Assembly (NCBI GenBank): GCA_008933615.1
Contig: WBUR01000019.1
Coordinates: forward strand, 1-64,000
DNA from: a bacterium
GTDB taxonomy: Bacteria > CLD3 > SB21
DNA: 64,000 bases
Direction: 5' to 3'
Shown here: piece after piece, positions 7,201 through 58,054 of the stretch
Layout of the letters: every line of letters begins with the position of its first letter
Numbering within the stretch: position 1 is the first letter of the stretch
Notes under the pieces: generated by a model
Database searches by the model: none
Seen by the model: only the letters and a program-made list of their open reading frames with translations
Told to the model about the DNA's origin: nothing
Position numbers and translations under genes: made by a program

Positions 7201-7229
7201 CTTACAAAAGAATATTTGATCAAACATTA

Positions 7230-12993: not shown

Positions 12994-13010
12994 GAAGGCA
13001 TTAGAGAACA

Positions 13011-13778: not shown

Positions 13779-13796
13779 CGTGTTGGAGAAACCTCA

Positions 13797-15380: not shown

Positions 15381-15400
15381 TTGATAATAAGTGGGGTAAT

Positions 15401-16183
15401 ATGAGTATTTATGAGCAGTTACTTATGATAAAAGACCGGAAGGGTTCCGGTTACTTTGTTTTGATTGATCCGGACAAAAAATCCGAGGGGGACACTCTTA
15501 AAACGGTTGAAGCATGCGTCGCAGGAGGTGTTGATGCTATTTTAGTCGGAAGCAGTCTGCTTTTATCACAACGATTTAATTCGACCATTAAACAAATTAA
15601 AGCAGAATTTAATGTACCGGTCATTTTATTTCCAGGAAGCACCATCCAGCTTTCTGAATATGCAGATGCGGTTCTCTTTTTATCACTCATAAGCGGGCGA
15701 AATCCGGAATTTCTGATCAGTACGCAGGTTCTTGGCGCTCCGATTATTCGTAAAATGGCATTAGAAGCAATTTCTACCGGCTATATGCTCATCGAGTCAG
15801 GTAAGACGACGGCTGCAGAGTTTATGAGTAATTCAAAACCGATACCGCGCGACAAAAACGATATTGCGGTGGCCCATGCAATGGCTGGCGAATATCTCGG
15901 GATGAAAATGATCTATTTAGAAGCCGGAAGCGGAGCAACTCATTCCGTTCCGGAGGAGATGATCGAAGCGGTTAGCGGGTACATTACTATCCCGGTCATC
16001 GTTGGAGGTGGAATTAGTTCACCGGAAGCTGCTCGTAGGAAAGTTGAAGCGGGAGCTGCGTTTGTTGTGACGGGCAATGTATTAGAGCCTTCGGAAAATA
16101 TAGGTCTGATCAAAGAATTTTCAGATGCTGTACATTGGAAGAATCCCACGATAGAAACACCCTTTCTCAGAAAGGTCAAATGA
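15401..16183 (+). CDS. Geranylgeranylglyceryl phosphate synthase family protein (group II type)
   Basis: A 260-residue TIM-barrel prenyltransferase of the GGGPS/PcrB family. FVLIDPDKKSEGD at residues 19-31 holds the metal-binding aspartates, MIYLEAGSGATHSVP and VGGGISSPEAARR the phosphate-binding loops. The family joins a prenyl diphosphate to sn-glycerol-1-phosphate, the first committed step of archaeal ether lipids; related enzymes occur in Bacteroidetes and other FCB bacteria. The length fits the longer archaeal/Bacteroidetes forms better than short Bacillus PcrB. No glycerol-1-phosphate dehydrogenase or second prenyltransferase is in the window. It overlaps the next gene by four bases. 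Confidence 0.9.
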   Translation: MSIYEQLLMIKDRKGSGYFVLIDPDKKSEGDTLKTVEACVAGGVDAILVGSSLLLSQRFNSTIKQIKAEFNVPVILFPGSTIQLSEYADAVLFLSLISGRNPEFLISTQVLGAPIIRKMALEAISTGYMLIESGKTTAAEFMSNSKPIPRDKNDIAVAHAMAGEYLGMKMIYLEAGSGATHSVPEEMIEAVSGYITIPVIVGGGISSPEAARRKVEAGAAFVVTGNVLEPSENIGLIKEFSDAVHWKNPTIETPFLRKVK

Positions 16184-16896
16184 CGCGCGCGCTCATCGTT
16201 TTTGCAAAAAAACCGGAAGCGGAAAAGGTGAAAACGCGGTTAGTGCCGCCGTTAACCTTTGACGAGGCGAAAGAGCTGTATATATGTTTTTTGAAGGACG
16301 CCATAGTACAATATTGCAAGCTCGCGTCGGAAATGAAGTTCAAAATATTTCTGATGATCACACCGGATAATGCAGTCGGCTATTTCACGGAATTCATGAA
16401 CACAATTCCAGAGATAAAAGATCTAAAATCAGACATAAAAATTCTTGTGCAAAAAGGGGCTAATCTGGGTGAGAAAATATCAAATGCTTTTGATACCGTG
16501 TTTTCTGAAAAATATACGCAGACCATGGTCATAGGAACGGATCACCCAACATTGCCTGATGAATATATTGCCAGAGCCTTTGATGAAATGGGCCAGAGTA
16601 AAACCGACTGCGTCATAGGCCCAACAGAAGACGGAGGGTATTATTTGCTCGGTTTAAAAACGATTCAAAAAGACTATTTTACAGGAGTGGCATGGAGTAC
16701 GGAAAATGCGTTTGCTCAAACTTTAGAAAATTTGATCAATAAAAAGAAAGCGGTGCAGCTTTTACCGATGTGGTATGATGTAGATGATTACACTGCTTTA
16801 ATTAAGATGCTGGATGAACTGGCACAGGAAAAAAGTAGACACATACCCTTGTACTCAAAAAAATTCTTAAGTCAAATGAAAACGGTTGAGGTATAG
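16180..16896 (+). CDS. DUF2064 / TIGR04282-type glycosyltransferase
   Basis: From the ATG at 16180, which overlaps the previous stop as ATGA, the protein has 238 residues; an in-frame ATG at 16135 would overlap the preceding gene far more. It starts RALIVFAKKPEAEKVKTRL, the nucleotide-binding signature of the DUF2064 (rSAM/selenodomain-associated transferase 1) family, and has GTDHPTLPDEYI and GPTEDGGYYLLGLK, the typical GT-A-like metal and substrate motifs. Substrate is unknown. The association with GGGP synthase could mean a head-group or sugar-transfer step, but this is a guess. Confidence 0.85.
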   Translation: MTRALIVFAKKPEAEKVKTRLVPPLTFDEAKELYICFLKDAIVQYCKLASEMKFKIFLMITPDNAVGYFTEFMNTIPEIKDLKSDIKILVQKGANLGEKISNAFDTVFSEKYTQTMVIGTDHPTLPDEYIARAFDEMGQSKTDCVIGPTEDGGYYLLGLKTIQKDYFTGVAWSTENAFAQTLENLINKKKAVQLLPMWYDVDDYTALIKMLDELAQEKSRHIPLYSKKFLSQMKTVEV

Positions 16897-16901
16897 GCAT
16901 C

Positions 16902-17375
16902 ATGGCTGAAAATAATACACAGTTGCGACTCTTACATTTCAGGTCTGATAATCAAGATTACGCGATGGACTTGAACTGCGTAAAAGAAATAATACGTATG
17001 GCGGCCTTGGATCATGTTTCAGAATTACCGGAATTTGTTAAGGGCATTATTAATTTGCGCGGAGAAACTTTACCGGTCGTTGATTTTCTGTCGAGATCTG
17101 GCGCGGGAACCACAGCGATACAACTTAAGACGCGCGTAATTATTATGAAAATTAAGTCCGTAACTCTGGGTTTGATGGTGGATGAAGTTAAAGAAACTTT
17201 TGAAGTTGAAGAAAAAGATATTTCAAAAAACATTCAACCGGATGTTGTCATTGATCCTAAATATATTTTGGGTACTTTTTTGTTTAACGAGCACATGACC
17301 ATTTTGGTGGATGTGCAGAAATTATTTACCGTAAATGAATTCAAAAAACTCGAACAGGGCGTAATTAATGCATAG
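16902..17375 (+). CDS. cheW: CheW coupling protein (first copy)
   Basis: A 157-residue single CheW domain: LRLLHFRSDNQDYAMDLNCV at the start, FVKGIINLRGETLPVVDF in the middle, and FLFNEHMTILVDVQKLF at the end. CheW bridges chemoreceptors and CheA in the signalling array. It lies five bases after the transferase gene and overlaps cheR by eight bases, so translation is likely coupled. A second CheW-domain gene follows downstream. Confidence 0.95.
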   Translation: MAENNTQLRLLHFRSDNQDYAMDLNCVKEIIRMAALDHVSELPEFVKGIINLRGETLPVVDFLSRSGAGTTAIQLKTRVIIMKIKSVTLGLMVDEVKETFEVEEKDISKNIQPDVVIDPKYILGTFLFNEHMTILVDVQKLFTVNEFKKLEQGVINA

Positions 17376-19059
17376 AGCTGATGCAGAAACTACTGCGGCA
17401 AAACGCTCGCCAACAAGGTACTCCGCGCGTGAGACAGAGTTTTCGGAGGAGTATTTTATAAAGTTCCGTGATTTGATTCGGACGAAAAGCGGTATTTTTT
17501 TTGCTGACCGTAAAAGATCTGATTTGAAAGCGGGGGTTTTGAAGGCTTTTCACTATTCGGGCATGAAAAATCTGAGCGAGTATTTTGACCTCTTATCCGT
17601 TGAAAAATCGAATTCACCTGCTTTCAAAATGCTGGTTTCATTTCTGACTATCGGAGAGACTTATTTTTTTCGGCATTTTGACGTTATCGAAAGAGAGGTT
17701 TTGCCAAACCTTATCAAGTCGCATCAACACGATAAGACATTGCGTATATGGAGCGCAGGCTGCTCTACAGGGGAGGAGCCGTTCACAGCGGCGATGGTTC
17801 TGAATCACCTGTTGCCTGATATAAGGGAATGGAACATCAGTATTATCGGAACCGATATTAATATTAATTCACTGCAATATGCTAAAGACGCCGTGTATAG
17901 GCCGTGGTCATTGCGATCAATTAGTGATTTCTATAAGAATAATTTTTTTACAAAAAAAGACGGCTTGTATTACCTTGATGATCGGGTAAGGTCGCTTGTT
18001 AATTTTGATTATTTGAATTTAGTAGACGACGCATATCCATTATCTGAAAATTTCACGAAGGACCTTGATCTTATTTTTTGTAGAAACGTTACGATCTATT
18101 TTGAGATGGAAACGACGATTAAAGCCGTTCATAAGTTTTATGAATGTTTGAAGGAGAAAGGGTATCTGGCCGTGGGGCATGCGGAACCCAGTAGTTTAAT
18201 TTATGATAACTACGTGTCCGAGATTTATCCGGATGCAGTTATTTATCGACGTGATACGGCTCTGAAAAAAGAACAACAATATAAGACCGGTATACGAATT
18301 CGACGGGATATATTCAAAGACTATAGCGACCAGCAAACGATTGCCTCCTCTGCGAAAACGGCTGTTCCTGATTTATCTGGATTGCAGAAACAGATCGAAA
18401 AACTTGAGATTCACAGATCGTCTCCAAAAAAGGAACAACCCGTTTCACAAAGAAGTGAAGTTCGTGAAAAACTGACTCAGCGCAGTGAGCAAATAGAAAC
18501 CAATAGGGTACAGAGCACGCCTGAAAAAACGGCCGCTCAATCTGAAGTTGAACGGCGCGCTCAGCTTAACGAATCGGATCTTTTCTCTAAGGGAGTAGAA
18601 CTTTTTCAACAAAATGATTTTAACGCCGCCGAAAAGTCTTTTATAGAGCTGGTGGAGCGATATCCTAAAAATGCACGCGCTTTATATATGGTGGCTCATA
18701 TTAAGGCTAACAAAGATCTTGTAGAAGATGCAAAACTATTTTGCCAGAAAGCAATTGAAAACGATTCTCTGCTTATCGAAGCATACTATCTTTTAGGCCT
18801 GATATATAAAGAAGAGAATGCGTTTGACCAATCCATCCGACTTTTAAAAAAGACGATCTATATTGATCCAAATTTTGCCATCGGTTATTATGATTTGGCT
18901 GTTAACTATTTTAAACTAGGTGACAATGTCCAAGGTCACAAATATCTAAAACAGACAGATAGAATATTAAAAACCTGTAATGACGATGATCGCATCGGGC
19001 TGCTGGATGATCTGACTGCGCGCGAACTTGGCATGATGGTCAAAATGTGGGATAACTAA
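17368..19059 (+). CDS. cheR: CheR methyltransferase with C-terminal TPR repeats
   Basis: A 563-residue protein. The CheR N-terminal helical domain covers about residues 30-85 (FRDLIRTKSGIFFADRKR), and the SAM-binding methyltransferase about 95-300 (RIWSAGCSTGEEPFTAAM, then LDLIFCRNVTIYFE). A low-complexity linker rich in Gln, Ser and Glu leads to TPR repeats from about 400 (FSKGVELFQQNDFNAAEKSF). CheR methylates receptor glutamates. TPR-tailed CheR proteins are known from chemosensory systems of non-enteric bacteria, where the tail is thought to bind partners. Confidence 0.95.
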   Translation: MHRADAETTAAKRSPTRYSARETEFSEEYFIKFRDLIRTKSGIFFADRKRSDLKAGVLKAFHYSGMKNLSEYFDLLSVEKSNSPAFKMLVSFLTIGETYFFRHFDVIEREVLPNLIKSHQHDKTLRIWSAGCSTGEEPFTAAMVLNHLLPDIREWNISIIGTDININSLQYAKDAVYRPWSLRSISDFYKNNFFTKKDGLYYLDDRVRSLVNFDYLNLVDDAYPLSENFTKDLDLIFCRNVTIYFEMETTIKAVHKFYECLKEKGYLAVGHAEPSSLIYDNYVSEIYPDAVIYRRDTALKKEQQYKTGIRIRRDIFKDYSDQQTIASSAKTAVPDLSGLQKQIEKLEIHRSSPKKEQPVSQRSEVREKLTQRSEQIETNRVQSTPEKTAAQSEVERRAQLNESDLFSKGVELFQQNDFNAAEKSFIELVERYPKNARALYMVAHIKANKDLVEDAKLFCQKAIENDSLLIEAYYLLGLIYKEENAFDQSIRLLKKTIYIDPNFAIGYYDLAVNYFKLGDNVQGHKYLKQTDRILKTCNDDDRIGLLDDLTARELGMMVKMWDN

Positions 19060-19075
19060 CGAGTAAGGGATATAT

Positions 19076-19684
19076 ATGAGCCATAACCAAAACATGCATA
19101 CGGACGAAGTATTTGATGAAGTGCATAAACTGATTTCCAGTTTATTGACAAGGGAAATCACGCCTGAACAACAGGAAAAGGTTTTACTCGAAAGAGCCGT
19201 AAAGTTAAAAAAGGTTGAAAAAGTAGAAGATACCGGTGAAAAAATGGATGTGGTCATTTTTCAGCTGGGTAGTGACTTGTTTGCGCTCGAGGCCCAATAT
19301 ATTCACGAAATACGTCAGATCGGCGAGATTACCCCGGTTCCGTGTACACCTGATTTTGTTCTCGGAATAACCAGTGTAAGGGGTTCAATCTACTCGGCGC
19401 TTGATATTCGAAAGTCGTTCAGCGCAGACGAGAAAGTTGTATCACCGGAAAGTATGTTCATTCTAACAATTTGGAACAAGATTGAGGTGTGTTTGCTCGT
19501 TGATTCTGTGTTGGAAAAAAGAGGCATCCCGAAACGTGACATTAAACCCATTGTGACAGGTTCCAAGAATGCAAATCTAAATTATGTTATTGGTTTCGTT
19601 TTATTAAACGAAAAAATGGTCACGCTGATAGATTGGAACGGGTTTATAGCGCACGCAAATATTGTTGTTAATGAAGAAGTATAA
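19076..19684 (+). CDS. CheW-domain protein with N-terminal extension (second copy)
   Basis: A 202-residue protein: the CheW domain begins near residue 57 (MDVVIFQLGSDLFALEAQYI) and includes FVLGITSVRGSIYSALDI and FVLLNEKMVTLIDW. The preceding 55 residues are charged and helical (LLTREITPEQQEKVLLERAV) and have no counterpart in the first CheW. Two different CheW proteins suggest distinct coupling to the two receptors in this operon or to another array. It follows cheR after 16 bases. Confidence 0.9.
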   Translation: MSHNQNMHTDEVFDEVHKLISSLLTREITPEQQEKVLLERAVKLKKVEKVEDTGEKMDVVIFQLGSDLFALEAQYIHEIRQIGEITPVPCTPDFVLGITSVRGSIYSALDIRKSFSADEKVVSPESMFILTIWNKIEVCLLVDSVLEKRGIPKRDIKPIVTGSKNANLNYVIGFVLLNEKMVTLIDWNGFIAHANIVVNEEV

Positions 19685-19715
19685 ATATTTAACTTATAGC
19701 TGATGGAGTTTAGAT

Positions 19716-20987
19716 ATGTTTGATCAACAGATTCTTTGGTTTTTTCTCGGATTAACGGGCGCAACGCTAATTTCAATTGCGTTTTCATTTAGATTGTCAA
19801 AGCGACGATTCTATAAAAATATTACTATCGCTATCGTTGTGATTGCAGCCGGGGATGCTTTTTTTGGTTTCTTGCTTGGCAAGTTCAGCAGCAATATGTT
19901 GGCTTGGGCCGTAGTTTTTGTTGCAGGATTTGTTTATTCCTTTATTGGAGTTTATATCATTGCAAAGAACTTAGTCTTGCCGCTTGATAAAATGGTACAC
20001 TACTACAAAAAAAGCGTTTCAGAAGGTGATTATTCCCAAAAACTCGAAATTGATCCAAAAAGCCCTCTCTTTGATGTATTCGAGATAGTAAATAATCTGA
20101 TTAAATATATTGAAGCTTTGAAAGATAAGATTCAAGATACTGTTTCAAAATTGTCTACGCTCGTAACGGAACTTACAGCAACTATGGATCAGCAAGTGCA
20201 TGGGATGAATGAACAATCCACTGCGCTCAATCAGACAACAACAACGACTCAAGAACTTGCCGCTACATCCCATCAGACTACCGAGAAGGCTCAGTTTGTT
20301 GTTGAAGCAACGGAGAAGAGCATGGAAGTAACCGGCAAAGGCAAGAATGCGGTAGACGGCACGATTGATGAAATGAACGAAATCCGCCGTAAAGTTGAGC
20401 GTATTGCAGAACAAATTCTAGATTTGAGTGAAAAAACACAGCAAATCGGTATCATTACCACTACGGTTAATGATATTGCGGAACAAACGAATATGCTTGC
20501 CCTGAATGCCGCTATCGAAGCAAGCAAGGCGGGAGAGTTCGGTAAAGGTTTTGGTGTAGTTGCATTCGAAGTTCGCAAATTGGCGGAAAAAAGCAAAGAA
20601 GCCTCGCTGCGAATTCGTGATCTCATTACGCAAATTCAAAATGCAACCAATTCCACCGTAATGGCCACTGAAGAAGGCTCTAAACGCGTCGATATCGGCG
20701 TGGAGAAAATACGTGAAGCCGGCCGGCTCATGGATGAAAGTATGCAAAGTCTTGAGGAAAATGTAGGTTATGCGCAACAAATCCTCGTTGGAAGTAAACA
20801 GCAAACCATCGGTATTGAACAAATTACATTGGCTATGGCTAATATCAATGAGGTGGTGAAACAGGTTGCAACCGGCACGCATCAAACTCAAAATGCCGTT
20901 GATTCGGTACTTACTTTGACCAAAGATCTTGACGAAATTGTTGAAACACAGTTGAATGGGAATGGAAACGGGAATAAACGGTCTTAG
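19716..20987 (+). CDS. Chemoreceptor without periplasmic sensor domain
   Basis: A 423-residue receptor. The N-terminal 90 residues contain about three closely spaced hydrophobic segments (FFLGLTGATLISIAF, ITIAIVVIAAGDAFFGFLL, LAWAVVFVAGFVYSFIGVYI) with no sizeable external loop, then a HAMP-like stretch and the coiled-coil signalling domain. The tip VNDIAEQTNMLALNAAIEAS is canonical. Because no ligand domain is seen, it may sense through the membrane or respond to partner proteins. It sits between the second CheW and cheA. Confidence 0.92.
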   Translation: MFDQQILWFFLGLTGATLISIAFSFRLSKRRFYKNITIAIVVIAAGDAFFGFLLGKFSSNMLAWAVVFVAGFVYSFIGVYIIAKNLVLPLDKMVHYYKKSVSEGDYSQKLEIDPKSPLFDVFEIVNNLIKYIEALKDKIQDTVSKLSTLVTELTATMDQQVHGMNEQSTALNQTTTTTQELAATSHQTTEKAQFVVEATEKSMEVTGKGKNAVDGTIDEMNEIRRKVERIAEQILDLSEKTQQIGIITTTVNDIAEQTNMLALNAAIEASKAGEFGKGFGVVAFEVRKLAEKSKEASLRIRDLITQIQNATNSTVMATEEGSKRVDIGVEKIREAGRLMDESMQSLEENVGYAQQILVGSKQQTIGIEQITLAMANINEVVKQVATGTHQTQNAVDSVLTLTKDLDEIVETQLNGNGNGNKRS

Positions 20988-21021
20988 GTTTTAGGTTTTA
21001 ACGCCACATAACAAAAATTAT

Positions 21022-23493
21022 ATGGAACTTTCGAAAGAAGAATTAAAAGAAATGATGTCCATTTTTAAGGTGGAAAGCGAAGAACACCTTAAGAATCTGA
21101 ACAAAGGACTTCTCAAATTAGAGGAGTCACCCACATCGAAAGAATTGCTGGATGAGCTTTTCAGAACGGCGCACAGTATCAAAGGCTCTGCGCGGATGAT
21201 GGGATTCAGCAAGATAGAAGCAGTATCTCACAAGATTGAAGATATTTTCGGCCTGCTCCGAAAGGGAAAAACATCGTTAACTCCAGAGGATTTTGATCTG
21301 GTTTATGAAGGCGTCGATCTGATTTCACAGATCATAGAAAAGATTTCTTCCGAAGGAACCGACGACGCCATAGATGTCAATACCCTAAACAAACGCCTCG
21401 AAAAATTGGTGCAGGCTAAGAATGCGGATTCTGAACAAGGAAAATCGAAAAAGTCCAAGTCAGCCCCGGCCACCACGAAAGCCGAAATAGAGGAAGAGCC
21501 GATTACCGATATTGAGTTGACCGAAGATGAAATGGTGCCGAGATCAGAACAATTTCAATCGGCACTCGATCCTAATGCGACAGAGATCTTTGTAGAAAAA
21601 TCGGATGGAACCGGAAAAAATTTAGGCAGCGATGATGCCTTCATCCGGGTTCCCACCCGGAGGTTGGATGATCTGATGAATCAGGTCAGCGAACTTATCA
21701 CTACGCGGATCAAGTCACAGCAGCGTTTGTCGGATATTCGTAAAATATTAGATTTTTGCGAAGAGTGGGGGCAGCAGTATGAAAGGGTGAAACAAATTGT
21801 TGACAAGACGGGAAACCGGTTATCAACTGAACATGAAACGGGCCCCGGAAATGGTAAAATGGCAAGGATCAGCAAGGAGCTTATCAGCCATACGGATTTA
21901 CGCTATTTGATCAATTCATTTAATAATTCATTTGATAAAATCGCAAAATTGATAGAATTCATAAATGATTTGCATGATAAGCATAGCGAAGAAAACCTAA
22001 GAACAGCCGTTATTACCGGCGATATTCAGGATAATCTGAGGATCATCCGTCTGCTTCCGATTTCCACTATTTTTGATTTATATCCCCGCATGATTCGTGA
22101 TATTGCAAAACTTCAGAGCAAAAAAATAAAATTTGAAGTGTTTGGCGCAGAAACACGCGTTGATAAAAAAATATTGGAGGAATTAAAAGATCCGCTTATT
22201 CATTTGCTTCGAAATGCAATTGATCACGGCGTGGAGTTGCCGGCAGAGCGTGAATTGTCAGGAAAACCTCCGGAAGGGCAAATCTCCATTCGAGCCAGCT
22301 ATGCCGGCAATATGGTTCAGATCGAGATTTCTGATGACGGCAAGGGAATTGATACTGAAAGGATTCTGCAAATTGCCATAAAAAAAGGGTATATAAAGCA
22401 AGATCAGGCATCCGAAGTTACAAGGAACGACCTGATCAGCCTGATCTTTCATTCCGGATTCTCTACCGCAAAAATTATTACGGATCTGTCGGGACGCGGC
22501 GTTGGTTTAGATGTTGTAAAATCCAATATTGAGAAGATCAAAGGTACGATCGAAACGGAGTCGGAAAAGGGCAAAGGATCAAAATTTATTATTAAAATAC
22601 CCTTAACGCTTTCTACGACGCATGCCCTCATTGTGGATATCGGAGGCGATCAGTACTCCTTGCCGATCGATTATATTGAACGAACGGTACGACTGACTGA
22701 AGAAGAGTTGTGGACCGGAGGAGCCAATCCGTTTGTGATGGTTGACGGTTACCCGGTGCCTTTATTTAAGCTTGAAGACGTACTAAGCAATCCAAGACAA
22801 CGGTTAAAAAGCCGCGGTTTGTTAAAGACGGGCGCAGTTCAGAAAATAGGTCAGCATATCAATACCATCGAGACCAACAAATTTCCCGCCGTTATTTTCA
22901 ATGCGTCCGGCCGTCGCGCGGCTTTTCTCGTGGACAAATTGTTGGATGAGCAGGAAGTCGTAGTGAAAAGCCTTGGCAATCAATTGAAGCGCGTAAGAAA
23001 TGTAGCAGGTTCCACTATACTTGGCGACGGTAGAATCTCTATCATTTTAGATCCGAATGACCTCGTCAAATCTGTACAAGGTTCCGGCGGGAAGTTTGTT
23101 TTCAAAGAACGACGCAGAAAAGATCTGGCCAAAAAAAAAATACTCGTTGTAGATGACTCCATCACTACGCGAACGCTTGAAAAAAACATTTTGGAATCCG
23201 CAGGTTACAATGTTGTCATTGCGACCAATGGCCAGGAGGGCTACCAGAAATTGCATGAAGCGGTGTATGACGTTGTTGTAAGCGACATCGAAATGCCCTT
23301 AATGAATGGATTTGAGTTTGCCGAAAAAGTTCGAAAAGAATCTAAATTTCCGGATATTCCCTTTATCCTCTGTACATCCTTGGAATCGGATAAAGACAAG
23401 CGCAGGGGAATCGAGGTTGGGGCAAATGCTTATATTATAAAGGGGAGTTTTGATCAATCCAATCTGCTTGAGACCATAGAAAAATTACTCTAA
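21022..23493 (+). CDS. cheA: CheA hybrid histidine kinase with C-terminal receiver
   Basis: An 823-residue protein. Domain order: Hpt/P1 at about 1-110 with the phospho-acceptor His51 in FRTAHSIKGSARMMGF; an acidic, proline-containing linker; dimerisation; HATPase at about 390-530 (HLLRNAIDHGVE, DDGKGID, GRGVGLDVV); a CheW-like domain (THALIVDIGGDQYSLPIDYI); and a receiver at about 700-823 with the phospho-acceptor Asp in VVSDIEMPLMNG. Built-in receivers are common in chemosensory systems that control pili, exopolysaccharide or development as well as flagella. There is no separate CheY gene in the operon. Confidence 0.96.
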   Translation: MELSKEELKEMMSIFKVESEEHLKNLNKGLLKLEESPTSKELLDELFRTAHSIKGSARMMGFSKIEAVSHKIEDIFGLLRKGKTSLTPEDFDLVYEGVDLISQIIEKISSEGTDDAIDVNTLNKRLEKLVQAKNADSEQGKSKKSKSAPATTKAEIEEEPITDIELTEDEMVPRSEQFQSALDPNATEIFVEKSDGTGKNLGSDDAFIRVPTRRLDDLMNQVSELITTRIKSQQRLSDIRKILDFCEEWGQQYERVKQIVDKTGNRLSTEHETGPGNGKMARISKELISHTDLRYLINSFNNSFDKIAKLIEFINDLHDKHSEENLRTAVITGDIQDNLRIIRLLPISTIFDLYPRMIRDIAKLQSKKIKFEVFGAETRVDKKILEELKDPLIHLLRNAIDHGVELPAERELSGKPPEGQISIRASYAGNMVQIEISDDGKGIDTERILQIAIKKGYIKQDQASEVTRNDLISLIFHSGFSTAKIITDLSGRGVGLDVVKSNIEKIKGTIETESEKGKGSKFIIKIPLTLSTTHALIVDIGGDQYSLPIDYIERTVRLTEEELWTGGANPFVMVDGYPVPLFKLEDVLSNPRQRLKSRGLLKTGAVQKIGQHINTIETNKFPAVIFNASGRRAAFLVDKLLDEQEVVVKSLGNQLKRVRNVAGSTILGDGRISIILDPNDLVKSVQGSGGKFVFKERRRKDLAKKKILVVDDSITTRTLEKNILESAGYNVVIATNGQEGYQKLHEAVYDVVVSDIEMPLMNGFEFAEKVRKESKFPDIPFILCTSLESDKDKRRGIEVGANAYIIKGSFDQSNLLETIEKLL

Positions 23494-23500
23494 CTAAATT

Positions 23501-24658
23501 ATGATTAAAATACTAATAGCTGAAGATTCGCCAACCGTAACGATGATTCTTCAGAAAATATTTGCTGCTGATGATGAATGCCAGGTGATCGGTACGGCTA
23601 AAAACGGCAAAGAAGCGATTGACAAAGTGAAGCTACTGCGTCCGGATATTGTTACAATGGATATTCGTATGCCGGTTATGGACGGCTTCGAAGCAACGAA
23701 ACAAATAATGACATCTCATCCCACACCAATTCTCGTGATTAGTGCTTCGGTAGGTAAGGACGACCTGAATATTGCTTTTAATGCGATACGAGCCGGTGCT
23801 TTAGATATTGTTGAAAAGCCCAAGGGTAATCTTGCCATGGATTATGAATACATAGGCAGAGACCTTATCAAGAAAGTAAAAATTCTCTCCGGCGTTAAAG
23901 TATTTCACCACGTGTCGGGAAAAGCAATTAGTGCGCGAGCTGATTCCAAACAGGCATCGAGCGGCGATATGCCGCTGACGCCCGCATCAAATAAATTTGG
24001 AATAAAAACGCCTTCTACGAGAGAATTGCTGGCTGCCGATAAGCGTTTGTATCCTAAAGCAAAGACCAGTTCAAAGCCTCCGGAGGTTGTAGCCATTGCT
24101 TCTTCCACAGGCGGGCCTTCAGCCCTTCTGAAGATCTTAAAAAATTTGCCTGATACTTTTCAGATCCCGATTGTTATCGTACAACATATCTGTGAAGGAT
24201 TTGGCCAGGGTTTTGTAGACTGGCTTAACAAGGAGTGTAATTTGACTGTTAAAACTGCTGAACGCGGTGAAGTCCTAACCCAAGGAAATATTTATGTTGC
24301 TCCAGACGGGTTCCATCTATTGATCGATCCAGGAAAAGTGGTGCGCCTGAGTAAATCAATGCCTATCAATGGCCTACGACCATGTGCGACATTAATGATG
24401 GAAACTGCAGCGAAAGTTTACGGCGGTGCGACTATTGGCGTTATTTTGACCGGCATGGGGCGTGATGGTGCCGACGGTATGAAAGCTATCAAAGATGCCG
24501 GCGGTCTCACTATTGCGCAAAGTCCGGAAACCTGTGTTGTTTTTGGCATGCCAAAGGAAGCAATCGAATTAGGAGTTGTTGACAAGATTCTCCCGATCGA
24601 GCGCATAGCAAACGATCTGGAATATGTAACTAAGCTGAATGAAATTGAAAACGCATAA
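23501..24658 (+). CDS. cheB: CheB protein-glutamate methylesterase
   Basis: A 385-residue response regulator: receiver at about 1-120 (LIAEDSPTV, phospho-acceptor Asp in VTMDIRMPVMDG), a linker of about 70 residues, and the methylesterase domain with its catalytic triad in ASSTGGPSALL (Ser), VIVQHICEGFG (His) and GMGRDGADGM (Asp). It removes methyl groups from receptors, opposing CheR. It starts seven bases after cheA. The linker is longer than usual. Confidence 0.96.
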   Translation: MIKILIAEDSPTVTMILQKIFAADDECQVIGTAKNGKEAIDKVKLLRPDIVTMDIRMPVMDGFEATKQIMTSHPTPILVISASVGKDDLNIAFNAIRAGALDIVEKPKGNLAMDYEYIGRDLIKKVKILSGVKVFHHVSGKAISARADSKQASSGDMPLTPASNKFGIKTPSTRELLAADKRLYPKAKTSSKPPEVVAIASSTGGPSALLKILKNLPDTFQIPIVIVQHICEGFGQGFVDWLNKECNLTVKTAERGEVLTQGNIYVAPDGFHLLIDPGKVVRLSKSMPINGLRPCATLMMETAAKVYGGATIGVILTGMGRDGADGMKAIKDAGGLTIAQSPETCVVFGMPKEAIELGVVDKILPIERIANDLEYVTKLNEIENA

Positions 24659-24674
24659 CTAACCGGGCAGTATT

Positions 24675-26360
24675 GTGGCAAAAGAAAAGATATTAGTGGT
24701 CGATGACAGCGCAACGCAACTCATAATGTATAAGATGGCGCTAACCAAAGCCGGTTATCTTGTCATCAGCGCAAAAAACGGAGTAGAGGGCGTTCATCTG
24801 GTTGAAACTGAAAATCCCGACTTGATCGTAAGCGATATTATCATGCCGGAACTCAATGGATATCAATTCTGCCGCCTTGTCAAAGATGACCCTTCACGCG
24901 GCCACATTCCTATAATATTGTTAACCAGCCTTGGGCAGCAACAAGACCGTTTTTGGGGCATTGAAGCTGGAGCTAACAGCTTCGTTACTAAGTCTACGGA
25001 TACCGCAGAGTTGCTTGCCGAAGTAGACAGGCTTATCAAGAGCTTTGTCAAACCGCAGATGATTGATTATTCAGAACGAGAAGAGGATAAATACGCTGTC
25101 AGCTCTCCTGAAGGCGCGGAAGAAAGCGTTAAGACTAAGATCAATAGGATTCTTGAACGCCTGCTGTATGAATCTACCGTTTCAAATCGGATGAGGGAAT
25201 TGTCCCGCTATGCATATAATCGATCCGAGATGATGAAAAAGGCTTTTGAATTATTTCATCAGATAGTAGAGTATCATGTGTCCATTATTACTCTTTTTGT
25301 CAAAGAGGATGTGCATTTTACGATCGACATTCAAAAACCGGTCACGGACGGATTTGTAGAAAAGTGCATGGAGACGGCGCTGGAACAGGATTTTAATCCT
25401 GAAAAAATTCGCCTGGGTATGGCCAAAAATGTGCGTAAGGAAGTTCTGCAGGAAGAGTTGGTGAAAGAAGATGGCACAGCCGATATACAATCGACTCTGA
25501 TCATACCGCTGCAGGATGATGAGGAGGCCGTTGGATCTATTGCCGTATTTACATCGGATACCTTTGCATATAATAAGGACATTCACAAACTTGTTCAGCT
25601 CATCGCGCGGGAGCTCCTGCTCACTATAAAATATATCAGGAAATTGGAAGAGATCGAGAGGATGAAAACTAATTTTACTTCAACGATCGTGAATGATCTG
25701 CGCGGCCCGATCATTGCTAACCAAAGTTTTGTGGAGGCACTTTATCATGAATACGTTGATCCGGTCACAGAAGATCAGAAAGAAATTCTTGGAAATATTC
25801 TTGGAAATAACAAAAAACTACTCAGTTTTATTAATGATATCCTTGATATTTCAAGGATCGAATCAGGTACCCTGGAAGTCTTTGTCGAGAATAATACCGT
25901 CAAAACGGTATTAGATGAAGCTGTCAAAAACATGTCAATTCTGGCCGAGCAAAAAGAAATTATGTTGAATAATGAAATTGAAGATGAGACTCTCAAGGCG
26001 GTGTTTGATGCAGAAAAAATTATTCAAGTCATGAATAACCTTATTTCTAATGGAATCAAATTTACTTCAAATGGGGGAAGTGTTTCGATCGGAGTTCAGG
26101 CTGACTCAGGCAACCCGCTTCGGTTTTACGTTCGAGATACGGGCATTGGTATTCCGGAAGATGAATTACCGTTTATATTTGAAAAATATAAACGGGGCAG
26201 CGGCGTTTTTTCAAGTGACGAGCATGCCGCGGGCGGCGGTGTTGGGCTGGGACTGGCTATATGTAAGTCCATTGTTGAAGCGCACAAAGGCAAAATTTGG
26301 GTAGAAAGTAAAGTAGGAGAGGGCTCGGTAGTGTATTTTACCGTTCAGGCGGAGAAATAG
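24675..26360 (+). CDS. Receiver/GAF-like/HATPase protein with missing H-box histidine
   Basis: A 561-residue protein starting at GTG 24675. The receiver at about 1-125 is intact (VVDDSATQ, Asp in IVSDIIMPELNG). A middle region of about 200 residues looks GAF-like (STLIIPLQDDEEAVGSIAVF). The dimerisation segment reads FTSTIVNDLRGPI, where kinases have SHELRTP: the acceptor position is Asn340 instead of His. The ATPase domain keeps its N box (NNLISNGIKF), DTGIGIPEDE and GVGLGLAICKSI. It may therefore bind ATP without autophosphorylating at this site, acting as an allosteric or phosphatase-like component. It is 16 bases after cheB. Confidence 0.88.
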   Translation: MAKEKILVVDDSATQLIMYKMALTKAGYLVISAKNGVEGVHLVETENPDLIVSDIIMPELNGYQFCRLVKDDPSRGHIPIILLTSLGQQQDRFWGIEAGANSFVTKSTDTAELLAEVDRLIKSFVKPQMIDYSEREEDKYAVSSPEGAEESVKTKINRILERLLYESTVSNRMRELSRYAYNRSEMMKKAFELFHQIVEYHVSIITLFVKEDVHFTIDIQKPVTDGFVEKCMETALEQDFNPEKIRLGMAKNVRKEVLQEELVKEDGTADIQSTLIIPLQDDEEAVGSIAVFTSDTFAYNKDIHKLVQLIARELLLTIKYIRKLEEIERMKTNFTSTIVNDLRGPIIANQSFVEALYHEYVDPVTEDQKEILGNILGNNKKLLSFINDILDISRIESGTLEVFVENNTVKTVLDEAVKNMSILAEQKEIMLNNEIEDETLKAVFDAEKIIQVMNNLISNGIKFTSNGGSVSIGVQADSGNPLRFYVRDTGIGIPEDELPFIFEKYKRGSGVFSSDEHAAGGGVGLGLAICKSIVEAHKGKIWVESKVGEGSVVYFTVQAEK

Positions 26361-32029: not shown

Positions 32030-33811
32030 CTATGGCTTAAGAATGGTAAGGTCGTCAAACGCAATTTGCACTTCAGGCAATACAGCCAGGCCCACATTCC
32101 CATAGATGAATGTATCATCAGTCACTTCACTTATTTGTTGATCATTTATATAAAGCGTGAAACGGTTTCCGATACATTTTGCTGTTAGTATATTATCTCC
32201 TTCTGATTTGATGGCCTCGGAAAAACTCCACGGCGCAAGATATTTCCAGTTTGAATTGACGTATTTGCCAAAAGCATATTGCCGATGTTTGTTTATAAAA
32301 AAAATGTATCCGTCCGTTGCTGTTTTCACGCGCAGCATCAAACCGTACCCGCTGGCTGCAGAGCCTTGAATCCACAGCGTTTTCACAGAAGCGGTGAAAT
32401 CATAATAATCCTTATCGAGCCATGACGAACTACCGTGAACAGAATCATACATGACATAAACGCCGCTTTTCATGTAATTATGGTGATCTTCGTACCATTC
32501 ATTTTGACCGACGAAATTTTCATAAAACATTAGTTTTGCGGTCATGGGCAATTTAGTTTCATCAACCATTTTTTCGTAATGGTAGACTGAACTGATATGT
32601 CTACAATCCGAATCAAAGACACCGTTATGATCCAAATCCACCCAACCGATTTGCGCACGAGTACGATCACAGAGAAAAAGATCATTAGACTTCATCATAC
32701 AGACATCTTTGATCTGCCTGTCTGTGTATTGCATGCCTGCCATATCCAAAATTGAAGCGGTATGCTGGGTGTTCTTATCATCGTACTCGTCCATTGCGTT
32801 GAATACATGTCCTGTTTCATGCGCAACAACTTTCCAAATCTGATTATAGCCCCAGCCGTTACACTTGTTCGGGATGACCATATTCGGGCCGCCCACATAA
32901 GCCCACGCGACACCGGATTTATTTGCGAAATAACCATCGTCATCGTTTCGCGCAGGCACAACAAATATTACGAACGACCAATCTGTTTTATATTGCTTCC
33001 TCAAAACATCCGAATAGGCACGGGTTCGCTCATAGTCTTCACCCTCAGTATAGCCTAATTGGTTCATACAGTCTTTGACCCAAATAGGGCTTTCTTCTCT
33101 GCTTCGTGTTATGGGTTCATAGCCGGTAGTACACCTTTTGATATCATACGTCCAAGACAGATTTGCACGATAACCTCCCTCCTGTGACCACCACTCCATG
33201 CCACCGTAAATTTGCTCGGTAATATGTTCAATATCATTTGGCGTCCATGTCTCGGTCTTATGGTCCGTAGTTCCGCTTGATTCTACAATAATTATTCCTA
33301 CACTTACCGAGCCAATTAGGTAGTCGCTCGTGTTTAAACTTTTCGAATTCAGCATTGCTGATTTATTATTCGCGGCTACGTTCGTAGGTCTGCGAGGAAT
33401 CTCGTCAGGGTATTTATTTATAGCAACTTCATGCGATTTTACAGTGGTAATGAATAAATTATTCCAGTTGTTGACACCCATTTCTTCTGCCGTACTCATG
33501 TCTTTCAGAGTTCCGGGTCCAATCGGCTCTTCTGCAATTAGTGTGATTATTCCGGTTAAATTTAAAGCTAATTTACTTTTTTCGGTAAGATAAGCTTGAA
33601 GGATCCGAGGTGGGTATATATGAACAACATGTCCGCCGTTAAACTCAATTACTAATCTTGTCGGTTCGAGTTGGCCGGTTTCTTTCAGGACGATGAGAAC
33701 GCGTTTTCCTTCGAAAGCGGATTGTCCCCATAAAACTGAAGTGAATAAGATAAAATATAGCAGGGTAGAGAGGTAAGTAAATACAGATTTAGTACATGGC
33801 TGCGAGCGCAT
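32030..33811 (-). CDS. Secreted zinc metalloprotease with C-terminal LamG-like domain
   Basis: From ATG 33811, one base past the preceding stop codon, the protein has 593 residues and a signal peptide ending near LWGQS. The frame runs on to 33997, but that part lies inside the upstream gene. The zinc motif HETGH (codons at 32821-32807) is followed by VFNAMDEYDD, resembling the HExxH...DEY arrangement of IgA-peptidase M64-like enzymes. The last 170 residues form a beta-rich domain like laminin-G/concanavalin folds (YYDFTASVKTLW, NRFTLYINDQQI, GNVGLAV). Substrate unknown. Confidence 0.8.
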   Translation of the reverse strand: MRSQPCTKSVFTYLSTLLYFILFTSVLWGQSAFEGKRVLIVLKETGQLEPTRLVIEFNGGHVVHIYPPRILQAYLTEKSKLALNLTGIITLIAEEPIGPGTLKDMSTAEEMGVNNWNNLFITTVKSHEVAINKYPDEIPRRPTNVAANNKSAMLNSKSLNTSDYLIGSVSVGIIIVESSGTTDHKTETWTPNDIEHITEQIYGGMEWWSQEGGYRANLSWTYDIKRCTTGYEPITRSREESPIWVKDCMNQLGYTEGEDYERTRAYSDVLRKQYKTDWSFVIFVVPARNDDDGYFANKSGVAWAYVGGPNMVIPNKCNGWGYNQIWKVVAHETGHVFNAMDEYDDKNTQHTASILDMAGMQYTDRQIKDVCMMKSNDLFLCDRTRAQIGWVDLDHNGVFDSDCRHISSVYHYEKMVDETKLPMTAKLMFYENFVGQNEWYEDHHNYMKSGVYVMYDSVHGSSSWLDKDYYDFTASVKTLWIQGSAASGYGLMLRVKTATDGYIFFINKHRQYAFGKYVNSNWKYLAPWSFSEAIKSEGDNILTAKCIGNRFTLYINDQQISEVTDDTFIYGNVGLAVLPEVQIAFDDLTILKP

Positions 33812-33812
33812 G

Positions 33813-36401
33813 TTATTCTTGTGATACGGGTCGCTCGGTTTTTTCCGTTTCTGATTCGCCCGTTTTTCGTTGTTGAAGTATCCGGTCAACAATGGAGTCG
33901 GTCGAACCGCTGCTCTTGATGACTTCACCGTCCATGGTGAGAAGAGGCGTTCCTGGTAATTTGAATTTCCGTTTTGATTTAGTGCGTTGTGTAACAAAGG
34001 CCTGACGTTTCTCTTGAGTGTTTAACCGCATACGAATCAGTTCATCATATATACGTTTTTCTGATAATACGGTAAATCCATATTTTTCCGTATTCATCAT
34101 ATCGCCGATCAACTTCGGCCCAAGATCTGGATTTTCACGAATAATATCGAAAATTTTTGCCTTTTGTTCTATGCTTAAATGCCGGGCTTCGATATCGGAG
34201 CCGTCACCCTTGTTCTTTAATCCTTCATCACCTAATTCGGCAAAACGTTTTTTATATTTATAGTACGTTGAAGTTGAAATACGCGCCTTCTTACACGCAT
34301 CTTTAACGCTCATACCGCCTGCTACATCATCGAGGAGGGTTTTGCGTAAATTAAACAAGACGTCACCGGACGCCATATTCTCTTTAATTGCAACAAATGT
34401 TATGTCGTCGTTCTGCGGGGCTCCTTCAGTAAACGACAAAATTTCCTGACGCATGTTTTCCACGAAACCCTTGGCGTCATTCAAAGCAAATCTTCGAATA
34501 CTCTCGAGAAAACGTTCATCGCTAAATAGGTCGCGGTTCGTATTCATCGCTTCCGTGATTCCGTCTGTATACGCAATGAGAACATCGTCCTCAAGCAGTT
34601 TGATGCTGTCGGTTTGAATGGATTGGCCGAACAATTTTCGATCCGGCAAAGAAATACCTACCGGGAACCCGCGTGGATTCAAATAATAGGTTTGTTTTGT
34701 CGATGCGCGGTGCAGGATCATCGGATTATGGCCGGCGCTGGCGTAGTGAATGGTTCGATTTCGTGAATCGAGAATAATATAGAACATCGTAACGAACATT
34801 CCTTTTTTCATATCGTCAACGACAAAATCGTTGACACGCGCCAGCACATCGCCAGGGTTTTTGTTTCCACGAGCCTCAAGCCGTAATGCGGTTCGAATCA
34901 TAGTCATAACTAAGGAGCCGGGCACGCCTTTACCGGAAACGTCTGCTACAACTATTCCGATTGTATCTTCATCTACGCTGATAAAATCAAAAAGATCACC
35001 GCCGACTTCTTTTGCGGATTCATAATAGGTGGAGATATCGTAACCCTGTACTTCAGGAAAACTGGTCGGGAGCAGCATGTGCTGAATTTCTTGAGCGACC
35101 TGAATTTCTTTTTGTAGCTGTTTCTGCTGAACAAGGCCAATCTGCGCTTTACGAAATTTTGATGCCATGTCGCTAAAAGCCTGCGCGATTTCACCGACTT
35201 CGTTCGTAGTGTCAATATCCATATCATCGGTGATCGTCTCATGCCCCGCTGATCGGATCCAATCGGTCAGCTTTTGGAACGGACTGATAATACGCGCAAC
35301 TAATATGGCGATTCCGGAATAACCCAATAAAAGAATAAGCGTAGCTAGTACGATACCCAATAGTTTCAACGTTGCCATTTCGCTTTGAATCGTTTGTTCC
35401 TTTACAATGACACGTGAATATCCTAATAAGTTTTGCTGATCAATTATATTAGAACGATAAATGGGCGTATGGACGTCAAAAACATATTCGTCATCCCAGA
35501 GGTATTTGTATATCTGCGCAGTCTGTAGAAGTGCCGGGTTAGATATTTTTTCAGCCAAACTGTCCGGCAACTCTTGGCCATCCTGAATTCCCTGAACTTC
35601 AATTACTTCATAATCTGAAGGAATCTCATATTTACCCAAACTCTGCCGCCTGGACGAAGCAAAAATACGCTCCTCTTTGTCTACAACGAAAACGTCAACG
35701 ATAAGGTTCTCGTTTTCTTTTTTAAGCGCATCAACAATTTGGAAAACGGATAGGTCATTGAAATCCGCCATATATTCAGAACTTGAAGTAGATGTGGTCG
35801 CAGAAATGGCCGTAATTCGCTTTAATATCTGACCCTCCAGATTTTCCGTCTGAACTTTCTGAAATGCAATATATCCTGCAACAACGAACAACGTCAAAGC
35901 GGCTGAGGAAATGATGGCATATCTGTTTCTAAGATTGACCTGACTTAAAAATGTTTTTCTTTTCGATTTGGCAGTACGATATTTGACTAGGCGTAATTCG
36001 TTACCTTCGCTCGTTACCTGATAATCAATTTCATCCATCAGCTTTTGGAGCATGAAAATACCAAGGCCGCCTTTCTTGCCGATCTTGATATATTCCTTCA
36101 TGTCCGGAGCTTTGGCGTTTCGCGGGTCAAATGTACGCCCCTGATCTATCAGCACAATAGTCAGACTTGACGTCTTGACGATCGACCGCATGGTGACAAA
36201 CCCTCTGCCGGGAGTGTCTCGATAGGCATGGCGGATGATATTAGTCACAGCTTCATCCGTGGCGAGCTTTAACGAGCCGATAACCTTGTCATCAAATCCG
36301 TTTTTTCTTCCGATGGTGACCACAAAATCACGAAGATCGGCGAGATACTTCATGTCCGCCGGAACTTTCAGTTCTTCTTTATGTGAACTCTTAAACAGCA
36401 T
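33813..36401 (-). CDS. Fusion of RsbW-like kinase, membrane sensor, HAMP, RsbU-like PP2C phosphatase and helix-turn-helix
   Basis: An 862-residue protein. Residues about 10-140: HATPase of the anti-sigma kinase type (DEAVTNIIRHAY, DQGRTFDP, GGLGIFML near 111). TM1 about 160-181; an external sensor domain; TM2 about 346-369; HAMP to about 425. Residues about 450-665: SpoIIE/PP2C phosphatase (EVGGDLFDF near 467, VVADVSGKG, YTDGITEA, NDDITFVAI). From about 697: a transposase-like helix-turn-helix (SVKDACKKARISTSTYYKYK) and a second helical module. Partner-switching kinase and phosphatase are usually separate proteins. No STAS-domain antagonist is in the window. It lies 17 bases after the PorV-TPR gene. 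Confidence 0.88.
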   Translation of the reverse strand: MLFKSSHKEELKVPADMKYLADLRDFVVTIGRKNGFDDKVIGSLKLATDEAVTNIIRHAYRDTPGRGFVTMRSIVKTSSLTIVLIDQGRTFDPRNAKAPDMKEYIKIGKKGGLGIFMLQKLMDEIDYQVTSEGNELRLVKYRTAKSKRKTFLSQVNLRNRYAIISSAALTLFVVAGYIAFQKVQTENLEGQILKRITAISATTSTSSSEYMADFNDLSVFQIVDALKKENENLIVDVFVVDKEERIFASSRRQSLGKYEIPSDYEVIEVQGIQDGQELPDSLAEKISNPALLQTAQIYKYLWDDEYVFDVHTPIYRSNIIDQQNLLGYSRVIVKEQTIQSEMATLKLLGIVLATLILLLGYSGIAILVARIISPFQKLTDWIRSAGHETITDDMDIDTTNEVGEIAQAFSDMASKFRKAQIGLVQQKQLQKEIQVAQEIQHMLLPTSFPEVQGYDISTYYESAKEVGGDLFDFISVDEDTIGIVVADVSGKGVPGSLVMTMIRTALRLEARGNKNPGDVLARVNDFVVDDMKKGMFVTMFYIILDSRNRTIHYASAGHNPMILHRASTKQTYYLNPRGFPVGISLPDRKLFGQSIQTDSIKLLEDDVLIAYTDGITEAMNTNRDLFSDERFLESIRRFALNDAKGFVENMRQEILSFTEGAPQNDDITFVAIKENMASGDVLFNLRKTLLDDVAGGMSVKDACKKARISTSTYYKYKKRFAELGDEGLKNKGDGSDIEARHLSIEQKAKIFDIIRENPDLGPKLIGDMMNTEKYGFTVLSEKRIYDELIRMRLNTQEKRQAFVTQRTKSKRKFKLPGTPLLTMDGEVIKSSGSTDSIVDRILQQRKTGESETEKTERPVSQE

Positions 36402-36418: not shown

Positions 36419-38413
36419 CTATTTCTTCCGCAAATTATTTTGTTTCTGTACGCGCAATTGTTCTTCTGCCTTATCCACAGCCTTGAGAACGCGTTTATTT
36501 AAAGGGTCTTTTTCCAGAATTCTCTGCCAGATAATGATCGCCTGCTCATATTTGCCTTCGACATAAAGGTCGACGCCCTGTAGATATGTTTTTTCCTGGT
36601 CGCCCTCCAGATTTTTAAAAGTGGCAAAACCTCGAACAATTGATTTTTTGTGATATTCTTTTACAGTTTCATTGCTCGGATCGATGAGCAAGGCCTGTTC
36701 AAACGCCTCCATAGCGGCCTGATAATCTGCCTTTTGATAAGCGTCCAAACCGCTTCGTGTTGACTCGAGAAAACTAAGCCGGTTACTGATTTTCTTAAGT
36801 TCAGTATCAATCTCTTTTTGAATGGTCTGATTGGTCGGATCCAGGCCTCGGGCTTCGCTCAGAAGTTTTAGCGCTTCCGCAAAATTATTTGCAGCCGCGC
36901 TGGATCGCGCTTTAGCAATATAAGATCCGATCTTCTGATCTAAAAGTCCGCGGGTCTCGTTTAGGGCTTTTGCAAGTTCTGAATTGTTTGGAGAACGGTC
37001 TAATGCATTCTGGTATTCACTGATGGCACCAAGGTAATCGCCCTTTTGAACGAGTTGCGACCCTTTTTTGTAATGGTCCCTTATGAACTTGTCGTTTTCT
37101 TCATTAATCGTAAGCGACTTGACTGCGTTGGCCGTATCTGAAAGCTGTGCCGCTAGCTGTTCGTCCATCAGCATGTTGACACTGTCGATGTAATATTTTG
37201 CCTGTTCGTTGGCCGGGTCAAGCTGCAGAACCTGTTCAAATTGAACTAAGGCGGGGAGCAGTTTGTTATCTTTAAAAAGCTCCTTGCCCTGCGCATGGTG
37301 TTCTTTGAGAGCACGGGCTCTTGCCGCTTCCTGATTTTTTGTGATCAATTTTTGATCTTCTTCAAGGCGCTGGGCGCGCGCTATTTGAACTTTCTCTTCG
37401 ACAGTTTTGCCGAAATTCATGGTCAGCGACAAACGATGCAATGGCGTTCCAAACGGATTGCCGATGTTGACGGAATAGTCCACCTGAAAACGCTGGAATT
37501 GATTGAACTCTGTGCCCATCCCGACGGTCATTTGTCCGGCCATTAAACCAAGACGCGCTACGAGGAAACGGTTATAAGTAAATTCTGCACCCAAATTAAA
37601 AGTCGGACTAGGGCTCTCTTGATTTTTATTCATATCAACCGCCAGAGTAAATTTCTTCAACGTTTCATCGCCGAAGAATAGATCTTTTGCTAAACCAAAT
37701 TTAATATTATATGGATCGGTATCGCTAAGATCTACCATTTTAATGCTGGGTCTTATTACATTTTGAAAATTAAGTCCGACAGAGAGATTGCGGAGAATGG
37801 CATTATCATAATCGGGGCGCCACATGGCGCCGATATCCAGACCGAATCCGGTACCTGATACGGTGTTTACCTGGTCGTTTTCAAGATTTGCTGACGAGGT
37901 ATGATCTACTTTGAAAGTGGTTCCTAGCGCCAATCCAAACCACGGCAATTTCTTTCCGTACGAAAAGTAATATTCTTCTTTGGTCCATGATTGATTAGAG
38001 GAAATTACTGTAAAATCATTGTTGATGCTTATTCCATCAACACCAACCCTCGCGACGCCCACGCCGACTGAACCGAATTGTACAAAAGGAAACGTTACGC
38101 TGGCGAAATTGTAGAAGCTTCCGGCGACAAGCGTTGAATGAAATAGGACTAGATTGGACTGACTCAAGTAGTCAAGACCGGCAGGGTTCCAGAAAACAGC
38201 GGATCCGTCATTGGCCGTAGCTACGAATGCATTTCCAAATCCTTGCGCCCGCGCACCCATGCCGGTTTCAATGAAAAGACTTTGCGTGCCGTCTGCAGGG
38301 CCTTGTGCATAGACTTGCGGAGAAATATTTGTGTAGACAGTTAGAATAGCTGCCCAAAAAAATAAAACTTGAATAACAGCAGACTCGATATATTTTATCA
38401 AACGTCGGGGCAT
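36419..38413 (-). CDS. PorV/PorQ-type outer-membrane barrel fused to TPR repeats
   Basis: A 664-residue protein with a signal peptide (to YAQG). Residues about 40-350 match PorV/PorQ-type barrels: GARAQGFGNAFVATANDGSA and VFWNPAGLDYL at the start, then repeated amphipathic strands. Residues about 370-655 hold at least four TPR units (GKELFKDNKLLPALVQFEQV, GDYLGAISEYQNALDRSPNN, ADYQAAMEAFEQALLIDPSN, GKYEQAIIIWQRILEKDPLN). PorV works with the type IX secretion system in Bacteroidetes; whether this protein does is unknown. It begins a three-gene unit with the partner-switching fusion and the metalloprotease. Confidence 0.85.
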   Translation of the reverse strand: MPRRLIKYIESAVIQVLFFWAAILTVYTNISPQVYAQGPADGTQSLFIETGMGARAQGFGNAFVATANDGSAVFWNPAGLDYLSQSNLVLFHSTLVAGSFYNFASVTFPFVQFGSVGVGVARVGVDGISINNDFTVISSNQSWTKEEYYFSYGKKLPWFGLALGTTFKVDHTSSANLENDQVNTVSGTGFGLDIGAMWRPDYDNAILRNLSVGLNFQNVIRPSIKMVDLSDTDPYNIKFGLAKDLFFGDETLKKFTLAVDMNKNQESPSPTFNLGAEFTYNRFLVARLGLMAGQMTVGMGTEFNQFQRFQVDYSVNIGNPFGTPLHRLSLTMNFGKTVEEKVQIARAQRLEEDQKLITKNQEAARARALKEHHAQGKELFKDNKLLPALVQFEQVLQLDPANEQAKYYIDSVNMLMDEQLAAQLSDTANAVKSLTINEENDKFIRDHYKKGSQLVQKGDYLGAISEYQNALDRSPNNSELAKALNETRGLLDQKIGSYIAKARSSAAANNFAEALKLLSEARGLDPTNQTIQKEIDTELKKISNRLSFLESTRSGLDAYQKADYQAAMEAFEQALLIDPSNETVKEYHKKSIVRGFATFKNLEGDQEKTYLQGVDLYVEGKYEQAIIIWQRILEKDPLNKRVLKAVDKAEEQLRVQKQNNLRKK

Positions 38414-57965: not shown

Positions 57966-58054
57966 AAATGCCCCCGTGTAATTTGTAGCAACAGAAGATA
58001 ACACTTTTATATTCGATTTCACAAGAAAATTATTTGTTTTCGGTAAAATTAGAT

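Follow-up and report, generated by a model that had tools for sequence, protein, structure and literature searches.

The window, by which we mean the whole 64,000-nucleotide stretch of DNA that was analyzed, carries on its minus strand a gene for a membrane protein of 862 residues, referred to below as the switch gene. The gene, its domains and its immediate neighbors are located as follows, residue numbers referring to the 862-residue protein:

33813..36401, minus strand: whole switch gene, encoding kinase, transmembrane helix, sensor, transmembrane helix, HAMP, PP2C phosphatase and paired helix-turn-helix (HTH), 862 aa
35979..36374, minus strand: RsbW/SpoIIAB-type serine-kinase domain (HATPase_c_2), residues 10-141, from Pfam, NCBIfam, motifs and fold match
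35859..35921, minus strand: first transmembrane helix, residues 161-181, from hydropathy (helix 157-212 in the model)
35385..35858, minus strand: putative periplasmic sensor domain, residues 182-339, from a weak sCache_4 match and the AlphaFold model
35277..35384, minus strand: second transmembrane helix, residues 340-375, from hydropathy
35157..35303, minus strand: HAMP domain, residues 367-415, from a slightly sub-threshold Pfam match
34383..34970, minus strand: SpoIIE/PP2C serine phosphatase domain, residues 478-673 (Pfam span), from Pfam, alignment and fold match
34197..34346, minus strand: first helix-turn-helix (HTH A), residues 686-735, from Pfam and predicted structure
33990..34169, minus strand: second helix-turn-helix (HTH B), residues 745-804, which has a homologue in the tail of P0002, the STAS protein described below
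36419..38413, minus strand: outer-membrane barrel protein (PorV/UPF0164/PorP-like) with TPR repeats, 17 nt upstream of the switch gene, from sub-threshold matches
32030..33811, minus strand: downstream secreted protein with a weak M12-peptidase match

The switch gene is a single unbroken open reading frame of 862 codons from ATG to stop. An uninterrupted frame is kept in all seven genomes of the window's family (75-99% identity) and in dozens of independent genomes from two other phylum-level groups, and an assembly artefact was therefore rejected. Pfam and NCBIfam searches, hydropathy, the AlphaFold model and the individual motifs agree with the list of domains that an earlier note had drawn up for this protein by reading the sequence. 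The AlphaFold model of all 862 residues has a moderate mean pLDDT of 68 and shows the same layout as the domain searches. The earlier note had itself raised the possibilities that the N-terminus was no HATPase, that the C-terminus was no helix-turn-helix and that the frame was artefactual. All three were dispelled by the matches described below and by the recurrence of the frame.

The kinase domain was matched by Pfam HATPase_c_2 at residues 13-140 (E 2.6e-26) and by NCBIfam RsbW at residues 7-147 (E 1.4e-22). It retains the N-box residues E50 and N54, the G1 box DQG starting at D86 and the G2 box GGLGIF starting at residue 111, and the modelled part resembles the RsbW structures 6m36 and 6m37 with a TMt of about 0.9. 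The serine kinase that characterizes partner-switching systems, a GHKL enzyme of the RsbW/SpoIIAB family with N, G1 and G2 boxes, is thus present. Between the hydrophobic helices 161-181 and 340-375 the model places a mixed alpha/beta domain, which diverges more quickly than any other domain and matches the single-Cache family weakly. The following HAMP domain scored 23.2 bits in the window protein against a Pfam cut-off of 25, and lies above the cut-off in the orthologues at loci L018, L019 and L022.

The phosphatase domain was identified by Pfam SpoIIE at residues 478-673 (E 1e-48), the domain itself starting at about residue 424 with a linker helix. Its PP2C metal-binding aspartates are located in the motifs EVGGDLFDF (D469), VVADVSG (D487), YTDGITEA (D613) and NDDITF (D665/D666), and they are invariant in the alignment. 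The metal ligands of SpoIIE are D628, D746 and D795 (PMC5468089). The modelled phosphatase part resembles RssB, Rv1364c, SiaA and SpoIIE, and the second enzyme of a partner-switching system, a SpoIIE/RsbU-type PP2C with metal-binding aspartates, is therefore also found in the same chain. This domain content bears out the idea of the earlier note that opposing kinase and phosphatase domains are combined in one membrane protein, which can probably both add phosphate to and remove it from a separate switch protein.

At the C-terminus the profiles HTH_28 and HTH_23 exceed their Pfam cut-offs at residues 686-731, and residues 691-802 match the N-terminus of IS481 transposases (NCBIfam, E 2.2e-12). 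The region was modelled as all-helical, with eight predicted helices and a pLDDT of 83; its closest folds are the DNA-binding domains of Pax5, Prd, Pax6 and TnsB, these matches being weak (E about 0.2, probability 0.9-0.97). The transposase-like helix-turn-helix with a second helical module seen in the earlier note corresponds to HTH A and HTH B, which together form the two HTH subdomains with linker that define the paired type. The A+B pair is basic, with 29 K/R versus 20 D/E, and HTH A is degenerate in L022. Only one copy of the HTH module occurs in the window's genome, and when the window's phylum is compared with Krumholzibacteria its identity is 43%, against 37-41% for the kinase domain. 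Because it is as well conserved across phyla as the kinase, the view that it is left over from a transposon insertion was rejected. The resemblance in fold and sequence suggests that the paired HTH binds DNA; no target DNA site was found for it.

The full-length gene is present in all seven genomes of the window's family and absent from two genomes of a sister family. Orthologues with 37-44% identity and the same domain order, for which the earlier note had suggested searching related genomes, occur in two further phylum-level groups. Of the 80 genomes in the group that includes the Krumholzibacteria/Latescibacterota loci L017-L023, with the exception of L022, 30 carry such an orthologue. L022 belongs to a phylum represented by genome G014 (hereafter the G014 phylum), in which about 28 of 45 genomes carry one and two more matches cover SpoIIE only. 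In a tree of phosphatase domains the switch family stands apart from seven SpoIIE paralogues of the window's own genome, and the window's family is placed in one clade with the Krumholzibacteria group (support 100/100). Judged from these genes, the switch system occurs in at least three bacterial phyla.

The product of the gene directly upstream matched PorV at 16.3 bits (cut-off 27) and UPF0164 at 17.6 bits (cut-off 21.4), below the level for an assignment to PorV or to type IX secretion, and its Krumholzibacteria homologue matched PorP_SprF at 32.9 bits (cut-off 22.3). TPR repeats are attached to the barrel protein in the window's and the Krumholzibacteria groups. Of the 41 assessable loci in the three groups, a few of which overlap with separately read loci, 35 have a barrel gene directly upstream of the switch gene. 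In the separately read loci the barrel gene was found wherever the upstream sequence was usable, except in L023, in which the fused gene begins at an N-gap; several loci without a barrel neighbor have a contig end or an N-gap at this position. The barrel gene is the most constant neighbor and, on the strength of this pairing, a natural candidate for the input to the switch. The gene downstream behaves differently. Its product matched Reprolysin_5 at 20.7 bits (cut-off 27), it is missing in L014 and L029 and it is not conserved even inside the family, so co-regulation with a secreted protease was rejected. Of the unit proposed in the earlier note, consisting of the switch gene, a PorV-TPR protein and a protease, the link to the barrel-TPR protein was retained, with the PorV match sub-threshold, and the protease was not.

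In Krumholzibacteria/Latescibacterota the fused gene described below leads longer, conserved operons, such as L111 (G011:C68, positions 3976-17206) and the similar L112 and L113. These contain genes for the barrel-TPR protein, the fused switch protein, a ParA/MinD-like ATPase, a TPR protein, two stand-alone STAS proteins, a large membrane protein with a vWA-like motif and a secreted protein with a lamin-tail/FlgD-tail. A small ribbon-helix-helix-like protein follows the ATPase in L112 and L113, which places a pair of ParA and RHH proteins in a partner-switch operon. No sigma-factor gene was seen in the Krumholzibacteria operons read. The TPR protein of these operons has a full-length homologue in the window (56817-58022, minus strand; 25% identity, E 5e-35), encoded about 18 kb from the switch gene. 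Elsewhere in the window, translations indicate a chemosensory-like cluster at 16902-26360 on the plus strand (CheW-, CheR-, MCP-, CheA- and CheB-like proteins and response regulators) and, at 4596-5497 on the plus strand, an ECF-type sigma factor with, directly after it, a small protein that is putatively a zinc-finger anti-sigma factor.

Pfam detects no STAS domain in the window protein itself. Outside the window's family the missing component is found next to the switch gene or within it. In the G014 phylum, gene coordinates place a STAS gene immediately downstream of the switch gene in 12 genomes; 10 of these were read in sequence, and the spacing is mostly 27-85 nt and up to about 300 nt. 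Six of the 10 neighbors read consist of the STAS domain, a long linker and a C-terminal HTH-like tail, three are STAS only and one is cut by a contig end. In Krumholzibacteria the orthologue runs on past the HTH into three STAS domains (Pfam; L018 and L019), and open frames of 1350-1490 aa are found in most of the 30 matching genomes of the group. L146, the first-branching lineage of this group, has an unfused gene with a STAS gene directly behind it, and the fusion therefore looks derived.

The presence of STAS-domain genes elsewhere in the genome, which the earlier note had advised checking, was confirmed by eight matches, none of which is on contig C19 of the switch gene. One of them stands out:

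G000:C10:70634-71344: P0002, protein of 237 aa with STAS domain, linker and tail, unlinked to the switch gene

Among the STAS domains of its own genome, P0002 is the nearest to the fused domains of Krumholzibacteria (120.8 bits, next 97.9). It harbors the conserved motif YISSAGWG, in which S61 aligns with S58 of SpoIIAA, and so provides the STAS antagonist with a phosphorylatable serine that belongs to partner switching. P0002 was found in six of the seven family genomes with the switch gene and in neither of the two without it; the seventh, G003, is a fragmented assembly in which it was not found. In the G014 phylum a P0002-type STAS protein is present in 27 of 28 genomes with the switch gene versus 3 of 17 without (Fisher p 6e-8, kinship ignored). 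Sister genomes encode an additional stand-alone STAS protein with a GWG motif (L072 in G007:C149, L073 in G008:C222, L067 and L070), which is not among the STAS matches in the window's genome.

P0002 ends in a winged-helix-like tail that is related to HTH B (hhalign score 39.9, E 1.5e-7). A chance match was rejected, since the highest score was 17.7 in 200 column shuffles and 16.4 in five control regions of the window protein. An HMM built solely from STAS tails of the other phylum matches HTH B of family members and no other open reading frame of the window. The STAS partner lacks the HTH-like tail in Krumholzibacteria and in some genomes of the G014 phylum, and the idea of a shared module therefore does not extend to every member.

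Adjacency, fusion, and co-occurrence together with the shared tail domain are three independent kinds of evidence that predict a STAS partner for the switch protein, and from them we infer that P0002 is the actual substrate of its kinase and phosphatase. The same genome also contains a canonical trio of adjacent genes for a SpoIIE-type phosphatase, a STAS protein and an RsbW-like kinase (L058, G000:C16, 2856-6076). The STAS protein of this trio is a less likely partner, as it is encoded together with an RsbU and an RsbW of its own and scores below P0002; because a complete RsbU-RsbV-RsbW set is present, cross-talk is possible. The suggestion in the earlier note that the fusion might bypass a STAS partner found no support. 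A self-contained regulator, whose two enzyme domains would target their own polypeptide in cis or its DNA-binding domain directly, would agree with the lack of a STAS domain in the window protein and of a STAS gene nearby on its contig. Such a STAS-free, autonomous regulator was rejected as very improbable, given that the STAS partner lies next to the switch gene in another phylum, is part of the same chain in Krumholzibacteria and is inherited together with the switch gene in the window's family.

We consider it fairly likely that the gene encodes the sensor, kinase and phosphatase of a partner-switching system, that the unlinked P0002 is the switch protein of this system and that the system acts on DNA via the HTH modules. 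The constant gene pair suggests that the periplasmic domain would read the outer-membrane barrel-TPR protein, an envelope condition or both. As the domain order implies, HAMP and the linker helix would then set the balance between kinase and phosphatase; the setting of this balance by a regulatory region is established for RsbU- and SypE-type proteins. From the catalytic residues and the partner evidence, the two enzymes are predicted to write and erase a phosphate on S61 of P0002. The output would be on DNA through the A+B modules of the large protein and the B-like module of the STAS protein. Because both partners carry related HTH modules, the phosphorylation state would control either the docking of the STAS protein on a membrane-held complex or its joining and leaving of a DNA site, and an envelope signal could be converted directly into gene regulation. 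The Krumholzibacteria chain carries the STAS partner three times, so that sensor, kinase, phosphatase, putative DNA-binding module and predicted substrates are united in 1350-1490 residues. A more specific version is possible, but we hold it rather doubtful: a sigma-factor-independent switch with a shared, transposase-derived, paired-type HTH, in which STAS phosphorylation decides whether half-modules come together on DNA at the membrane, with the barrel-TPR protein in control, and which in Krumholzibacteria is a single polypeptide with three STAS domains.

The HTH modules might instead serve for protein-protein docking by homotypic contact between the kinase-phosphatase and the STAS protein, the output being a distinct sigma factor or effector to which the kinase domain or the STAS protein binds, as for SypA or classical RsbV. 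A B-like module on both partners suits such contact, a protein tethered to the membrane is awkwardly placed to bind DNA, and the STAS tail is dispensable in several lineages. We regard this explanation as unlikely, because the A+B pair is basic and matches IS481 transposase N-termini and paired DNA-binding domains, and membrane-held transcription factors such as ToxR and CadC exist. Less probable still is that the kinase domain, whose closest relative is RsbW, acts as an anti-sigma factor in an ordinary sigma-factor switch with the HTH as an accessory or a relic of transposase fusion. This is opposed by the lack of a sigma-factor gene in the Krumholzibacteria operons read and by a degree of HTH conservation that equals that of the kinase.

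In the preferred reading, with P0002 as the switch protein, one signalling circuit occurs in three arrangements, as separate unlinked genes, as adjacent genes and as a single fused chain, and the partnership of kinase, phosphatase and STAS protein becomes readable from genomes alone. If the HTH binds DNA, the system would connect the outer membrane to a promoter in one step, with neither a sigma factor nor a response regulator in between. Three uncultured phyla, the window's, Krumholzibacteria and a third, gain a testable envelope-signalling system with a PorV/PorP-like barrel at its center. The fused triple-STAS form, the HTH on both partners and the link to the outer membrane are its surprising and testable features.

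The enzymatic core of kinase, phosphatase and STAS protein is of a known kind. It shares protein families and catalytic residues with the RsbU-RsbV-RsbW and SpoIIE-SpoIIAA-SpoIIAB systems of Bacillus, which differ in that they consist of separate proteins with a sigma-factor output and have neither a paired HTH nor an outer-membrane neighbor. The earlier note described kinase and phosphatase as normally separate proteins, which holds for such textbook systems but is overstated, as the fusions SypE and Rv1364c are known (PMC10120452, PMC9138534). SypE of Vibrio fischeri has an N-terminal RsbW-type kinase, a central REC domain and a C-terminal PP2C, and acts on SypA (PMC10120452, PMC8256260). 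The window protein has the same order of kinase and PP2C, and in both cases one protein acts, or is predicted to act, on one serine of a separate STAS protein that is the output switch. However, a membrane-anchored sensor with HAMP takes the place of REC, and for SypE-SypA neither an HTH on one of the two proteins nor an outer-membrane partner is described. Rv1364c of Mycobacterium tuberculosis has the order PAS-PP2C-kinase-STAS and a sigma-F output (PMC9138534; structure 3ke6). Fold comparison places the PP2C domain of the window protein among the closest to 3ke6. The combination of phosphatase, kinase and STAS in one chain is not seen in the window protein, which lacks STAS, but recurs in another domain order in the Krumholzibacteria orthologues; Rv1364c differs further by its PAS sensor, its single STAS domain and the absence of an HTH. 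Because sensor or REC, domain order and HTH differ, the window protein belongs to neither type. With the paired-type DNA-binding domains of IS481 N-termini, TnsB, Tc3, Mos1 and Pax it shares the bipartite HTH by sequence and weakly by fold; in contrast to the transposases IS481, TnsB, Tc3 and Mos1 it has no transposase catalytic domain, and its HTH is joined to a signalling enzyme. Searches that covered the open literature returned nothing relevant for this architecture or for PorV together with SpoIIE or STAS. What looks new in comparison with these systems is the HTH common to both partners, the partner in the outer membrane and the fused form with three STAS domains.
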